NCBI GenBank assembly: GCA_017521805.1
Contig: JAFXDK010000014.1
Span: 1-39,818, forward strand
DNA length: 39,818 bases
Direction of reading: 5' to 3'
Source: Ruminococcus sp.
Lineage (GTDB): Bacteria > Bacillota > Clostridia > Oscillospirales > Ruminococcaceae
Shown: one piece after another, positions 11,477 to 33,091 of the stretch
How the letters are laid out: each line of letters begins with the position of its first letter
How positions within the stretch are numbered: position 1 is the stretch's first letter
Program-made: the position numbers and the translations under genes
Notes under the pieces: model-generated
Databases searched by the model: none
The model's input: the letters and a program-made list of their open reading frames with translations, nothing else
Told to the model about the DNA's origin: nothing

Positions 11477-12376
11477 ATGAAAAGATTTCTGACAGCATCA
11501 GCAGCGGCAGTTGTGACGGCTTTAAGCGTTTCTTCTGTGCCTGCATTTTCAGCAGGTACACCAATGGACTTTGACGGTGACAACAGAGTTGATGTATTTG
11601 ACCTTATCCTTGCAAGAAAAAGCGGACTTGAAGCGGAAAAGCTGATTCTCCTCAGCGATTTTCTACTCGGAAACGGCAACGGCTATACCGATGAACCTAA
11701 TACGGACGAACCGGATACGGATATAAGCAATGATTACACCATTGATGAAAGCTGTATCCTTGAACCTAAGGGCACGATTCATACGGGGGACGGTACATAC
11801 TACGGCGGCGGCTATGTAGGCGGCTGTGCAATGCTTGACCCTGTTTCCACTGATTACTGGATTGTGGCTATGAATCTTGCGGATTACAACGACGCTCAGC
11901 TTGCAGGTGCGTATCTTGAAGTTACAGGCGAGCTTGGTACTATAAATATGCTTGTTACTGATTTGCTCCCTGAGGGCAAAAAAGGCGACCTTGACCTGTA
12001 TGTTGACGCATTTCCGCTTATAGCGCCTCAGGAAAAGGGCAGAGTTCCTGTATCGTGGAAGATAGTTCCCCTTGATACAGCGGAAAATGCTCCCGTGTGC
12101 TACAAGTGGAAAGAGGGCACAACGGAATTCTGGTGCGGAGTTCAGGTGCGAAATCACCGTTATCCCATAACAAAGCTTGAATATCTCAACGAAAACGGTG
12201 AATTCGTGGAGATAAAGCGTCGTCCTTATAACTATTTTGAATCAATGGAAATGGGAAAAGGACCGTTTACATTCAGAATCACCGATATTTACGGTCAGGT
12301 TATTATAGATGAAAATATTCCGTTGTCTACCGATGATTCGGTAATAATCGAGGGCCATGTGCAATTCCCTAAGTAA
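11477..12376 (+). CDS. Secreted expansin with N-terminal half-dockerin
   Basis: A 299-residue secreted protein. Residues 1-26 are a signal peptide. Residues 31-65 contain one dockerin-like calcium loop and helix (DFDGDNRVDVFDLILARKSG) and then a helix-like DFLLG without a second loop. After an acidic linker, residues 95-299 match bacterial expansins of the BsEXLX1 type: YVGGCAMLDPV, VTDLLPEG with D162 in the place of the essential Asp, WKIVP, and the CBM63-like half with FWCGVQVRNHRYP and the terminal GHVQFP. The usual Trp-Trp face is Phe218-Trp219 here. Expansins loosen cellulose-matrix contacts without hydrolysis. GGAG precedes the ATG. It sits between two DUF3592-like genes in the pur cluster, an unusual place. 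Confidence 0.9.
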   Translation: MKRFLTASAAAVVTALSVSSVPAFSAGTPMDFDGDNRVDVFDLILARKSGLEAEKLILLSDFLLGNGNGYTDEPNTDEPDTDISNDYTIDESCILEPKGTIHTGDGTYYGGGYVGGCAMLDPVSTDYWIVAMNLADYNDAQLAGAYLEVTGELGTINMLVTDLLPEGKKGDLDLYVDAFPLIAPQEKGRVPVSWKIVPLDTAENAPVCYKWKEGTTEFWCGVQVRNHRYPITKLEYLNENGEFVEIKRRPYNYFESMEMGKGPFTFRITDIYGQVIIDENIPLSTDDSVIIEGHVQFPK

Positions 12377-12382
12377 TGACAA

Positions 12383-12542
12383 ATTGCTCCATCAACTAAT
12401 TCTTGAAGAATTATATGAAGCTTGGGGAGCAAAAGTCAAGTAAGAAAGCCGCAGGAATACTTGATGTATTGCAAGGTTTTCTGACGCAGAATTTTGCTTT
12501 TCAAGCAAAATAGAAAATTCAAGAATTGGTTGGTGGAGCAAT
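12383..12542 (+). repeat. Covarying-core inverted-repeat element, copy D
   Basis: Outer arms 12383-12407 and 12518-12542 are inverted repeats, 23 of 25 matching (ATTGCTCCA...TTCTTGAA). The inner core 12446-12489 matches 18716-18759 at 35 of 44 bases. In both, an 8-bp stem (here AGAAAGCC / GGTTTTCT) encloses a small AATAC/GTATT hairpin. The element starts 6 bases after the expansin stop codon and its right arm runs into the ribosome-binding region of the next gene, so it would lie in the transcript. Confidence 0.75.
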
Positions 12543-12545
12543 CAT

Positions 12546-13019
12546 ATGAAAGTAGAAAAAGCTGATTTTGTATGGGCGGTACTCGTCCTTATAACTGTGG
12601 GAGTAACCTTTCATTTCGGAATACTCCTGTATGGCATACTGGGAATATACGCTTCTATGGTGATTCTTTTCAGTTATCATATCCGCAGTGTAAAAAAGCG
12701 GATTGAAAACAGTGAAGCGGCATACGGCAAGATTCTTTCCTATCGCACGGAAAACTCGCTGATTAACTACTATTATCCCGAGGTTGAGTTTGAAACTGAG
12801 GACGGAGAGCTTATAAGTGCGGTATATACCTATCCTGATAAGGAAAAGAAGTATGAGATAGGCGATGAGGAGCTTATACGTTATACTCCTGACGATCCCA
12901 TGTTCTTTTACTTTGCTGACCGTGAAAAAGAACTGACAGAGATATACTACAGAAGTATAATATTCGGCGGAATAATTGCCGCAGTTATTGCCATAGCTAT
13001 TATTATCCTCAGTATATAA
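12546..13019 (+). CDS. Membrane protein, DUF3592-like
   Basis: A 157-residue membrane protein. Residues 8-45 form one or two N-terminal membrane helices, and a last helix is at about 136-157. The middle has a DUF3592-like strand pattern: AAYGKILSYRTENS, YYYPEVEFETEDGE and ELIRYTPDDPMFFYF. It is similar in design to the protein at 10987. The start codon follows the right arm of the inverted repeat, and GGTGGAGC in that arm may serve as ribosome binding site. purN follows after 13 bases. Function unknown. Confidence 0.72.
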   Translation: MKVEKADFVWAVLVLITVGVTFHFGILLYGILGIYASMVILFSYHIRSVKKRIENSEAAYGKILSYRTENSLINYYYPEVEFETEDGELISAVYTYPDKEKKYEIGDEELIRYTPDDPMFFYFADREKELTEIYYRSIIFGGIIAAVIAIAIIILSI

Positions 13020-17450: not shown

Positions 17451-18632
17451 ATGTCAAATGAAATGCAGTTAAAATACGGTTGTAACCCAAATCAGAAGCC
17501 TTCAAGAGTTTATATGGCTGACGGCAGCGAGCTTCCTATCGAGGTACTCTGCGGCAAGCCCGGTTATATCAATCTTCTTGACGCACTCAACGGCTGGCAG
17601 CTTGTAAAGGAGCTTAAAGCAGCTACAGGTGTATGTGCAGCTACTTCATTCAAGCACGTATCTCCTGCAGGTGCAGCTATCGGCAGACCTCTTTCCGACG
17701 ATTTAAAGAAGATTTACTGGGTAGACGATTTAGGCGAGCTTACACCCCTTGCATCAGCTTATGCAAGAGCAAGAGGCGCTGACAGAATGTCCTCATATGG
17801 CGATTTCATCGCACTTTCAGATAAGGTTGACGTATGCACAGCTAAGATGATTCAGCGTGAAGTTTCCGACGGTGTAATCGCTCCCGATTATGACCCTGAG
17901 GCTCTTGAAATCCTCAAGTCAAAGAGAAAGGGAACATACTGCGTTCTTAAAATTGATGAAAACTACAAGCCAGCACCAATCGAAACAAAACAGGTATATG
18001 GCGTATCTTTCGAGCAGGGAAGAAACGAGCTTGACATCAACCGCGAGCTCCTTGCAAATATCGTAACAGATAACAAGGAAATTCCCGAGGATAAGAAAGA
18101 TGACCTCCTTATCTCTCTTATCACTCTCAAATACACACAGTCCAACTCTGTATGCTACGTAAAGGACGGACAGGCAATCGGTATCGGAGCAGGTCAGCAG
18201 TCAAGAATTCACTGCACACGTCTTGCAGGACAGAAAGCTGATAACTGGTGGCTGAGACAGTCTCCGCAGGTTATGGGGCTCCAGTTTGTTGACGATATCC
18301 GCCGCGCAGACCGTGACAACGCTATTGATGTATACATCGGCGACGAGTACGAGGATGTACTTGCAGAGGGTACATGGCAGAATATCTTCAAGGTAAAGCC
18401 TGCTGTATTCACAGCTGAGGAGAAAAAGGCTTGGCTTGCAAAGAATACAGGTGTATGCCTTGGCTCTGACGCATTCTTCCCATTTGGCGACAATATCGAG
18501 CGCGCTAAGAAGTCAGGCGTTGAGTATATTGCAGAGCCCGGCGGTTCTATCCGTGACGATAATGTTATCGAAACCTGCAACAAGTACAATATTGCTATGG
18601 CATTCACAGGAATCAGACTTTTCCACCACTAA
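17451..18632 (+). CDS. purH: Stand-alone AICAR transformylase (PurH domain)
   Basis: Phosphoribosylaminoimidazolecarboxamide formyltransferase, 393 residues, forms FAICAR from AICAR and 10-formyltetrahydrofolate. The start LKYGCNPNQKPSRVY and the catalytic SFKHVSPAGAAIG (the Lys-His pair) mark the transformylase domain, and GGSIRDDNVIE near the end is also typical. Ordinary PurH is about 510 residues with an N-terminal IMP cyclohydrolase (MGS-like) domain; that domain is absent here. The missing activity is probably supplied by the PurO-type protein at 14237. AGGAGG precedes the ATG. Confidence 0.93.
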   Translation: MSNEMQLKYGCNPNQKPSRVYMADGSELPIEVLCGKPGYINLLDALNGWQLVKELKAATGVCAATSFKHVSPAGAAIGRPLSDDLKKIYWVDDLGELTPLASAYARARGADRMSSYGDFIALSDKVDVCTAKMIQREVSDGVIAPDYDPEALEILKSKRKGTYCVLKIDENYKPAPIETKQVYGVSFEQGRNELDINRELLANIVTDNKEIPEDKKDDLLISLITLKYTQSNSVCYVKDGQAIGIGAGQQSRIHCTRLAGQKADNWWLRQSPQVMGLQFVDDIRRADRDNAIDVYIGDEYEDVLAEGTWQNIFKVKPAVFTAEEKKAWLAKNTGVCLGSDAFFPFGDNIERAKKSGVEYIAEPGGSIRDDNVIETCNKYNIAMAFTGIRLFHH

Positions 18633-18650
18633 TAAAAAAATAATATAACG

Positions 18651-18813
18651 GGGTTCTTTAAAAAACGGAACACGAGCGAAATTTCGTACATGACAAATGT
18701 CAGTTACAAGGCGACAAACCGCAGTAATACTTTGTGTATCGCAAGGTTTGTCAACGCAGTAAATGATATTTGTCATAGGAAGTTCGCCGTGAGGGGGTTT
18801 TTTAGAGGTTCCC
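18651..18813 (+). repeat. Covarying-core inverted-repeat element, copy E
   Basis: Arms 18651-18702 and about 18764-18813 form an imperfect inverted repeat of roughly 50 bases (shared blocks AAAAAAC, CACG, ATGACAAAT). The core 18716-18759 matches copy D at 35 of 44 bases, with an 8-bp stem GACAAACC / GGTTTGTC starting just upstream of the shared core. Three of its pairs differ from copy D in both partners. It starts 18 bases after the AICAR transformylase stop and is sense to that gene. The arms have no evident similarity to those of copy D. Confidence 0.75.
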
Positions 18814-19022
18814 ATAGATACCACCGCACAGGCAGAGCCTTTTTACAGGAAATCTGCCTATGCGGTATTGCCGTTAATCTGAAAAAGTCATTTCCGCATT
18901 AATTTAATGCAACTTTTTCGTGTTCTGCGGTGTATTATTTATGTAGGGGGATATTATCCTCCCGAAATAAAAGGGGTGTAAAAACACCGCAGACACATTT
19001 TAATGATATAAGGGGAATTATT
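18814..19022 (+). other. Gene-free region with further inverted repeats
   Basis: Together with copy E this makes a 390-bp gap without a gene. An inverted repeat at about 18824-18875 (CCGCACAGGCAG / CTGCCTATGCGG, one mismatch) looks like a terminator-type hairpin. A second pairing GAAAAAGT / ACTTTTTC encloses GCATTA/TAATGC near 18880-18920. A GTAGGGG-type hairpin lies at 18943-18964. No convincing promoter for the lipoprotein genes was found. Confidence 0.45.
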
Positions 19023-24037: not shown

Positions 24038-24309
24038 TGTCGAAAAACCGCGAAAGACTACAAAGGGTGGGATTCTAAAGGGCGAAGCCCTTTAGCAGAG
24101 TCCAGAGACAGCGTCTCTGGCAGAGTGTGGGACAGCGTCCCACATAGCGTTTAAGCGCTCTGCAAGGGGTTGCCCGAACGTGAGGCAGGATGATGTTTGA
24201 ACATGAGGGTATATCGCACTTGGATTTGACTGCGATTGAATTGAAAAGAGGGGACGCTCTGCAAGTGAGAGCGTCCCCTAAAAAATATCTTATTGTAACT
24301 TTTTCGACA
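24038..24309 (+). mobile_element. Hairpin-string repeat copy B inside a 272-bp inverted-repeat-bounded segment
   Basis: The segment is bounded by perfect 10-base inverted repeats TGTCGAAAAA (24038-24047) and TTTTTCGACA (24300-24309) and sits between two identical terminator hairpins. Inside, 24068-24218 matches copy A and both ends match copy C. Hairpins include AAAGGGC-gaa-GCCCTTT (24077-24093), TGTGGGAC-agc-GTCCCACA (24125-24143) and an 11-bp stem GGGGACGCTCT/AGAGCGTCCCC (24250-24278). It encodes no protein. The boundaries look like a small non-autonomous element or a duplicated terminator region. Confidence 0.6.
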
Positions 24310-31692: not shown

Positions 31693-31717
31693 ATTGCTCC
31701 ACCAATTAACTCTTGAA
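31693..31717 (+). repeat. Partial copy F of the covarying-core element (one arm)
   Basis: 22 of 25 bases match the arm of copy D at 12518-12542 (read in reverse complement), starting 9 bases after the kinase stop. It is followed by GCCGCAG...ACGCA, which may be a shortened core. No matching right arm is present. Confidence 0.5.
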
Positions 31718-32013: not shown

Positions 32014-32958
32014 ATGCAGGTAAAATTTCATCTTCCCGATTTCGCAAACCAGTTCAAATTTAACCTTGTATTTGCTACAATGCTGAAAAACTGTCCGCAA
32101 TATTTCCGCGAGGGCGTTGAAATAGCCTCGATTTATGGCACTTTTCCGCAATCCCTATGGAACGGCGGAAGAACGACTACAGGCTTATGCGATACTAACT
32201 TTGCAAAAGTAGTAATAAATACTATGAATAAGCACGGAATCCCCCTCAGATTTACATTTACAAACCCTATGCTTGAAGAAAAACATCTCAGCGATAAATT
32301 CTGCAACGAAATCATGAAGCTTGCCGACAACGGCATGAATGAGGTTATTGTCAATTCCCCTCTTTTAGAGGACTATATCCGCAAGACATACCCCAATTAT
32401 AAGCTGACAAGTTCAACCTGCAAGCGTATTACTGAGCCGGACAAGCTTCTGGAGGAAATGAAAAAGGATTACAGCATTGTTGTCCTCGATTACGATTTCA
32501 ACAACAAATTTGATATACTGGAAACGCTCCCTGACAAAGAACGTATGGAAATTCTTGTAAATGCCTGCTGTGACCCCGAATGCAGCAGAAGAACAGACCA
32601 TTACCGCCACCTCGGGCTTCAGCAGATTGCCATGTGTGAGCACGTAGCTAAAAAGAAAAACAAGGGATTCAAAGTTGAGGATTACGGTTTATCTGAAATG
32701 AACTGTAAATGCGCCGACAGAGGCATTTTTGAAATAAAGAATCTCAGAACTCATATTACACCTGACGATATCTGGGAAAAATACGTGCCTATGGGATTCA
32801 GCCAGTTTAAAATTGAGGGCAGAACAACAACGCGCCTCAATCTTATGGAAACATATCTCTATTACATGGCAAAGCCTGAATACAGAGACGAAGCGCGTTG
32901 TATACTGCTTTATAATCTAGAAAAAAACGGCATTGTACGCATAGAGGGTAATAAATAA
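32014..32958 (+). CDS. Peptidase U32-like protein with a cysteine cluster
   Basis: A 314-residue protein. The fold is read as the U32 type from NEVIVNSPLLEDYIRKTYP (strand and helix in the barrel) and FKIEGRTT at about 265-272, which recurs in U32 proteins. Cys185, Cys186, Cys190, Cys208, Cys231 and Cys233 could hold an iron-sulfur cluster, as in UbiU/UbiV and related members. Those relatives take part in hydroxylation or tRNA modification, not simply proteolysis, so the substrate here is open. It is a single-gene unit with a consensus promoter and AAGGAGG 9 bases before the ATG. A hairpin-string repeat starts 3 bases after its stop. Confidence 0.65.
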   Translation: MQVKFHLPDFANQFKFNLVFATMLKNCPQYFREGVEIASIYGTFPQSLWNGGRTTTGLCDTNFAKVVINTMNKHGIPLRFTFTNPMLEEKHLSDKFCNEIMKLADNGMNEVIVNSPLLEDYIRKTYPNYKLTSSTCKRITEPDKLLEEMKKDYSIVVLDYDFNNKFDILETLPDKERMEILVNACCDPECSRRTDHYRHLGLQQIAMCEHVAKKKNKGFKVEDYGLSEMNCKCADRGIFEIKNLRTHITPDDIWEKYVPMGFSQFKIEGRTTTRLNLMETYLYYMAKPEYRDEARCILLYNLEKNGIVRIEGNK

Positions 32959-32961
32959 GAC

Positions 32962-33091
32962 GGGATTCTAAAGGGTGAAACCCTTTAGCAGAGTCCAGAG
33001 ACAGCGTCTCTGGCAGGGTGTGGGACAGCGTCCCACGTAGCGTTCAAGCGCTCTGCAAGTGAGAGCGTCCCCTTAAAATTACCTATTGTAA
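32962..33091 (+). repeat. Hairpin-string dispersed repeat, copy C
   Basis: Matches copy B (24069-24298) except that one block is missing: in B the sequence GCTCTGCAAG occurs at 24157-24166 and again at 24256-24265, and C has lost the 99 bases between the two. Hairpin AAAGGGT-gaa-ACCCTTT differs from copy B by a C-G to T-A pair. The TGTGGGAC/GTCCCAC stem is conserved. It starts 3 bases after the U32-like stop codon and is sense to it. Confidence 0.8.

Follow-up and report, generated by a model that had tools for sequence, protein, structure and literature searches.

Two sites in a 39,818-nt stretch of Ruminococcus sp. DNA, hereafter called the window, were described in an initial annotation as members of one structured repeat family having a covarying core of 44 bases enclosed in long inverted arms with no sequence in common, and the question raised by this pair is what kind of element keeps its centre while its ends differ. 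The common core is real, the best ungapped 44-mer having 35 matches (at 12446 and 18716) compared to 25 in the best of 30 shuffled pairs, and pairs 1 to 3 of the 8-bp stem within it are indeed changed on both sides (stem sequences in Table 1). The inner AATAC/GTATT hairpin is also kept, though with one A.C mismatch in the 18650 copy, and the second element, earlier placed at 18651-18813, had to be extended by its first base. The arms of the two elements are unrelated, as described, and are now identified as transposon ends, namely terminal inverted repeats (TIRs) accompanied by target duplications in related copies. The two elements were assigned to different families, A (18650) and B (12383), which have only the core in common. 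In the family B element the arms are 25 nt long and 92% complementary, and the same insertion with matching flanks was found at one other locus (L129). Neither window copy has an intact target duplication, the flanks of the 18650 copy being TAAC/ATAG. Both sites fold much better than shuffled sequences, with folding energy z values of -8.15 for 18640-18825 and -11.05 for 12370-12555, none of 200 shuffles being equally good in either case. The partial copy noted at 31693 consists of a left end only, located 9 bases downstream of a stop codon; matches to the covariance model of the core (R1) in the window are limited to the two full copies, with none at 31693.

Table 1 Features of the core-bearing elements in the window
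Feature	Position	Strand	Details
Family A MITE-like element, 164 bp	18650..18813	+	TIR GGGGTTCTTTAAAAAAC...GTTTTTTAGAGGTTCCC; family consensus GGGGTTCTCTAAAAACC
Conserved core of the 18650 element	18681..18786	+	Covariance model R1, 79.5 bits
Loop 2, 5′ strand, CAAGG	18707..18711	+	Faces CGCAG 18755-18759
Loop 2, 3′ strand, CGCAG	18755..18759	+	
Covarying 8-bp stem	18713..18752	+	GACAAACC/GGTTTGTC, enclosing the apical part
Loop 1 of the 18650 element	18721-18723, 18743-18744	+	GCA (18721-18723) faces AA (18743-18744)
Apical hairpin of the 18650 element	18726-18740	+	AATAC-TTTGT-GTATC
Family B MITE-like element, 160 bp	12383..12542	+	TIR ATTGCTCCATCAACTAATTCTTGAA / TTCAAGAATTGGTTGGTGGAGCAAT
Conserved core of the 12383 element	12411..12516	+	Covariance model R1, 83.0 bits
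Covarying 8-bp stem	12443..12482	+	AGAAAGCC/GGTTTTCT, enclosing the apical part
Loop parts of the 12383 element	12451-12454, 12473-12474, 12485-12489	+	GCAG 12451-12454, AA 12473-12474, CGCAG 12485-12489
Solo left end of a family B element	31693..31717	+	No core or right end; 88% complementary to the right end 12518-12542

Both window sites are MITE-like non-autonomous transposons with TIRs. The elements are about 160 bp long, multicopy and devoid of a transposase gene, with TIRs and target duplications found within the families; median lengths range from 158 to 172 bp, and the value for the Pseudoalteromonas family is 195 bp. Inverted repeats reached the threshold of the script in 97 of 115 distinct core elements, and the remaining 18 include copies of family A such as L011, the 18650 element itself, the ends of which fall just short. 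Besides GGGGTTCTCTAAAAACC of family A, the end families include GGCCTTGTTTGAAAA, GACCTCCTCGGGAACTG, GAACCTGTATTCATAACCG, GGCAACACCGCACAAAG and TTGCTCCACCAACTAACTC. Target duplications were tallied as the longest exact flank repeat around elements that possess the core and were oriented by it, each flank pair being counted once; the pattern for family A also takes in A2, and those for E and I overlap. Flank repeats of 4 bp were found in families A (35/52), A2 (4/5) and G (8/13), of 3 bp in E (3/4), F (2/4) and I (4/5), and of 2 bp in C (15/24), D (13/23, with four longer) and B (7/12). The Pseudoalteromonas family is mixed, 4 bp being the commonest length (14/34). The differing lengths point to different transposase subgroups, and duplications of 2, 3 and 4 bp presumably resemble those of IS5 subgroups.

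One of the TIR families suggests by its end a possible autonomous, IS5-like partner. Six contig ends of the genome from which the window comes carry the start of an insertion sequence (IS) with the 18-base end GGGCATCTCTAAAAACCC, identical at 18 of 18 positions to the TIR of the A2 MITEs; the known part of this IS is about 138 bases long, at which point the contigs end, as expected for a collapsed repeat. In tblastn its first 28 residues gave weak matches to 12 plasmid records (44 to 54% identity, E 0.3 to 0.9), nine of which are annotated there as IS5 family transposase, and no match for these residues was obtained in Pfam and NCBIfam. The initial annotation had listed a match to a known transposon end among the findings that would refute it; this applies in part, through the end of this one family, and the covariation described below still stands. 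The other families were not tied to a partner in this way: around the PF01609 transposase genes at ten loci of seven genomes no IS with a matching end pair was detected, the neighbourhood of these genes containing a MITE-sized D pair (L236) and a solo E-like end (L237). In Pseudoalteromonas, a 1-kb element lying between the right ends was considered as an autonomous partner and rejected, as it turned out to be an IS5-family IS (DUF4096, DDE_Tnp_1; L256, about 602-1624) that had entered a core element within its apical loop, at the sequence CTAG.

The core is widespread. A degenerate core pattern with up to three mismatches has 23 matches in the window's own genome and none when reversed as a control, while R1 finds at least 58 matches there; most copies in this genome belong to family A and have the same ends as the 18650 element. 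Exact scanning of one genome per species gave at least 115 stretches, most of them in records bearing the names Ruminococcus, Oscillospiraceae or Angelakisella; of these stretches at least two (L028 and L116) were missed by the later model R1 and may be chance matches. A search of further genomes with a covariance model, proposed at the outset as a check, detected the core in 34 of 60 genomes and 9 of 25 genera, own genome and genus included, when R1 was applied with a limit of E ≤ 0.001 to at most about 65 candidates per genome; the two weakest positive genomes rest on E 2.6e-4. Seven additional genomes contained 9 (a groundwater Gammaproteobacteria MAG), 16, 1, 98 (R. flavefaciens FD-1), 75, 87 and 114 matches. 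When a family C element was used as a BLAST query, 53 to 55 bases of the core were aligned in two Pseudoalteromonas replicons, which score 54.6 and 49.1 bits with R1 there, and four finished Pseudoalteromonas replicons have 5 to 12 R1 matches each at E ≤ 0.1. A Pseudoalteromonas copy used as a query retrieved nine records including its own, seven from Pseudoalteromonas and two from Catenovulum. One viral contig harbors a core copy scoring 76.1 bits with R1, and searches of plasmids, phages and E. coli with the elements returned matches in Alteromonadales only. Thus, one core spans families with different ends in Bacillota and Pseudomonadota, and the window repeats belong to a large superfamily of small, parasitic mobile elements in gut and marine bacteria.

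The core forms a hairpin whose internal loops are asymmetric, of the type C[AA]G/C[GCA]G, and alternate between the strands. According to 24 folded representatives and an alignment designated A1, the layout from the outside in begins with the paired ends, which in several families are separated from an inner arm by a loop CGCAG(GA)/(GA)CAAG. The inner arm is followed by loop 2 (CAAGG/ACGCAG), the covarying 8-bp stem, loop 1 (CGCAG/GCAAGG) and the apical hairpin. The core of the A2 MITEs has the same loops and a different apical hairpin (GCGTG...CGCAC). A1 was made with MAFFT from 36 rows picked for diversity, the structure being defined on one row. Standard pairs make up 85.4% of it (shuffles, 60.7%), double-change cells number 302 (shuffles, 107), 27 of 32 pairs have double changes, and the covariation score is 0.621 (shuffles, 0.176). 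RNAalifold, run unaided, predicted 25 pairs, 21 of them with double changes. In A3, an alignment obtained by fitting to the covariance model and hence leaning to the model structure, the paired fraction is 88.9% and changes on both sides occur at 32 of 32 pairs. The covariation noticed in two copies is therefore upheld over many.

As for the loops, conservation in A3 equals 0.97, 0.88 and 0.96 for GCA and 0.93 and 0.99 for AA of loop 1, and 0.79 and 0.85 for AA and 0.84, 0.68 and 0.80 for GCA of loop 2, with values of 0.36 to 0.58 in the variable columns of the 8-bp stem. Averaged over all core columns, the loops (0.73) barely exceed the stems (0.71), the latter value being raised by the likewise conserved apical stem. 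Since loop 1 and the apical stem were prescribed in the pattern used to gather the training rows, conservation of these two parts is partly a product of search selection, and only loop 2, lying outside the pattern, provides a fair measure.

Derivatives of these elements were also encountered. Eight family A-like copies (L148, L149, L150, L152, L154, L155, L156 and L157) of about 42 to 75 bp have kept both ends and lost the core, and the internal junction is nearly identical in several of them, which gives the impression of a separate family that spread by itself. Two of the short copies (L152 and L156) have target duplications, meaning that the core is not strictly required for movement; core-bearing copies outnumber core-less ones here. 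In L151 and L158 the apical part of the core is missing, as if deleted between two CAAGG strands, while four family E/F copies (L033, L058, L087 and L115) have about 55 extra nt, including CCAGGCGC...GCGCCTGG, in the 3′ half of the core. L003 combines a family A left half with a family B-like right end and is possibly a chimera of two families.

The window contains other repeats as well. Adjoining the 18650 element, positions 18820-18872 form an inverted repeat CCGCACAGGCAGA...TCTGCCTATGCGG followed by TATTGCC, which looks like a core-less element with family G-like ends, and a similar sequence is present at locus L346. Another repeat family, about 98 bp long and composed of several small hairpins (AAAGGGTGAAACCCTTT, CCAGAGACAGCGTCTCTGG and GTGGGACAGCGTCCCAC), is located at 1-173, 24068-24218 and 32957-33059, two of its copies being 95% identical.

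In the usual description a MITE is hardly more than a pair of transposon ends with filler in between, and one explanation would be that the present elements are ordinary ones, with paired ends and a passive interior in which neither hairpin nor loops play a role. A long palindrome will fold by default, derivatives lacking the core exist, and both window elements have typical TIRs, all of which agree with this explanation. What it does not account for is a core common to families with different TIRs and duplication lengths in two phyla, or a loop 2 that was kept, although outside the search pattern, while the variable columns of the neighboring 8-bp stem covary. It also has to face an asymmetry between the two strands.

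Of the 192 R1 matches in the fetched loci, the flanks were long enough in 147, and a set of 78 representatives was retained. Their left and right halves were aligned with equal scoring for G.T and A.C mismatches. In the core, G.T outnumbers A.C by 118 to 46 (50 representatives vs 13), and in the arms, which lie outside model R1 save for six bases a side, by 125 to 20 (70 of the 78 scorable; 49 representatives vs 6). This excess amounts to 60:16 in the terminal 18 bp (36 representatives vs 10) and 65:4 in the inner arms, and the Pseudoalteromonas arms taken separately show 17:1 (10 elements). The representatives share ancestry, so p values are too small and are not to be taken literally. Counts on model-fitted alignments (153:86 and 145:40) were set aside as leaning to G.T, and A1, which was not model-fitted, gave 75:29, with 15 of its 29 A.C cells falling on two loop-closing pairs. 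Within families A, C and D (45, 20 and 20 copies), in contrast, single-sided changes at Watson-Crick consensus pairs are found at 71 G.T and 58 A.C sites (p 0.29), family D alone showing a within-family G.T excess (54:26 cells, 23:16 sites). Purine-purine mismatches prevail over pyrimidine-pyrimidine ones both in the core (168:14) and in the arms (106:44), but the same is seen in ERIC repeats (44:10), so this excess is not special to the core superfamily.

A cruciform needs both strands and predicts equal numbers of G.T and A.C, and the asymmetry therefore disfavours selection on a cruciform. Mutation bias would give the same G.T excess in young copies, where little is seen, which makes selection on one folded strand likelier. 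Of the two options named in the initial annotation, RNA or cruciform structure, what survives is that one folded strand was apparently selected, and on our reading it is the founders of families that were selected for the fold of this strand. An asymmetry strong between families and weak within them does not suit passive filler either, and the ordinary-MITE explanation, already hard to hold, appears improbable to us.

Both window elements and the solo end were said to be placed in sense just after a stop codon, which holds true for the three places in the window (the ORFs end at 12376, 18632 and 31684) and would fit a host regulatory RNA that acts as a 3′-UTR stabiliser, as a terminator or as a processing site and has been propagated because of what it does to nearby genes. 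Effects on neighbouring genes have been reported for ERIC and NEMIS in the accounts given by PMC2229807 and PMC10969869. Such placement is not a rule among 122 of the 192 sites, namely those with 900 bases either side, each flank being counted once and genes being defined by the ORF script as ORFs of at least 100 codons: flanking genes are sense-sense at 36 sites, antisense-antisense at 34, mixed at 45 and missing on one side at 7. At the 66 sites where both genes lie within 300 bases the respective counts are 17, 26 and 23, and over all 122 sites the sense orientation to genes is not favoured, which makes the placement in the window look like chance. The site of the 18650 element is also variable between close relatives. 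Of 20 fetched loci, four were read downstream of the gene that ends at 18632 in the window, the site in a fifth, L348, not having been located by the pattern: no element is present in the first 250 bases or so in three of them (L345, L347 and L351), and L346 contains only a scar, GGGGTTCCC, apparently left by deletion between GGTTC repeats in the two element ends. With neither a sense bias nor constant presence behind this gene, a primarily regulatory role for the host is, in our opinion, highly improbable.

We consider it rather probable that the repeats constitute a MITE superfamily whose active source copies depend on one strand in its folded form, most likely as RNA. The elements would be non-autonomous units of about 160 bp whose ends and duplication length vary by family around a maintained central core, the whole folding as one strand into a single long hairpin. 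This strand, and not its complement, would be selected in the source copies that found new families. IS5-type transposases would presumably move the elements in trans, as suggested for one family by its TIR. The folded strand may be RNA rather than single-stranded DNA, arising by read-through of transcribed source copies, and its loops may bind a protein of host or transposase origin. We infer that by such binding the folded strand may help the mobilisation or persistence of the element, and that regulation of nearby genes would not be the main role of the element.

G.T tolerance as such cannot tell RNA from single-stranded DNA; RNA is our first choice, judging from sequence patterns, and single-stranded DNA would fit almost as well. 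The same superfamily might thus have been selected as a one-strand DNA hairpin arising from replication or excision and read by the transposase or a host factor. The strand asymmetry extends into the terminal 18 bp, where the transposase would be expected to bind, and no host transcript is necessary given the lack of a sense bias towards genes. Single-strand hairpin substrates are used by IS200/IS605, which provides a precedent. On the other hand, target duplications of 2 to 4 bp suit double-strand cut-and-paste, and orientation of the elements relative to GC skew in three Pseudoalteromonas replicons was 20:9 among 29 matches, the skew being weak and based on 20 samples each. We regard the DNA version as a less likely possibility worth keeping in mind.

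If the selected strand is RNA after all, a more far-reaching form of our preferred reading can be proposed, although we find it rather doubtful: a portable core, selected as RNA, would recruit transposition machinery in trans, for instance by tying a transcribed MITE to nascent transposase, and would be a bacterial counterpart of SINEs among DNA transposons. It would have been re-fitted with the ends of several transposase types because the core and not the ends carries this ability, and would have crossed phyla.

What sets these repeats apart from the usual picture of MITEs is that one folded core outlasts many changes of ends in Bacillota and Pseudomonadota and has seemingly been selected on one strand. 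Transposases have a cis preference, and provided that the strand is RNA, a DNA transposon would depend on its own transcript, which would bear on how bacterial MITEs escape this preference. The superfamily further hints at a testable explanation of why other repeats, e.g., ERIC, are structured, and R1 can be used to annotate repeats in gut genomes.

As for known systems, the initial annotation named no fitting family, and this holds: Rfam matches in the window at the gathering threshold are tRNAs only, and the same is true of seven loci searched at E up to 5. A sub-threshold match to SSRC34 over a core copy (L059, 3225-3355; E 3.3, with 29 bits where the cut-off is 64) was taken as chance. In the literature searched, no paper was recognised as dealing with this superfamily. 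IS5-family ISs resemble it in that a TIR is common to the A2 MITEs and the IS5-like element of the same genome; we know of no structured core common to families with different ends described for IS5-family ISs or their MITEs, and in this the superfamily would differ from them.

Small non-autonomous repeats with stem-loop transcripts include bcr1. The same is described for NEMIS/Correia, RUP and YPAL/RU-2 in PMC2229807 and for BOX in PMC10969869. By their descriptions, some of them in the table of PMC2229807, all five are set apart from the superfamily in having one end type and occurring in one or a few related genera.

ERIC, or IRU, is described in PMC2229807 as a MITE-like structured repeat of 127 bp with TA at its ends. 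Besides the purine-purine excess mentioned above, the consensus of nine copies (L364-L372) has GGAAGGCGGC and GCCAACGCA on opposite arms, with AAGGCGGC and GCCAACGCA at the position of loop 2, which resembles loop 2 and possibly indicates distant kinship. The strict loop motif is found in 2 of 9 ERICs and 24 of 147 core elements, with a single occurrence in 302 kb of background. ERIC differs in that its best R1 match (9.6 bits, E 0.46) lies away from loop 2, its apical part is unlike that of the superfamily, and its G.T and A.C mismatches are about even (13:11 and 14:11). Membership of ERIC by the covariance model was accordingly rejected, the loop 2 resemblance, found post hoc, remaining as a lead.

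Finally, the CORE-SINEs of animals have a conserved central domain common to families with different ends, as do the elements described here. CORE-SINEs are retroposons made from RNA, whereas the members of the present superfamily have TIRs and short target duplications.
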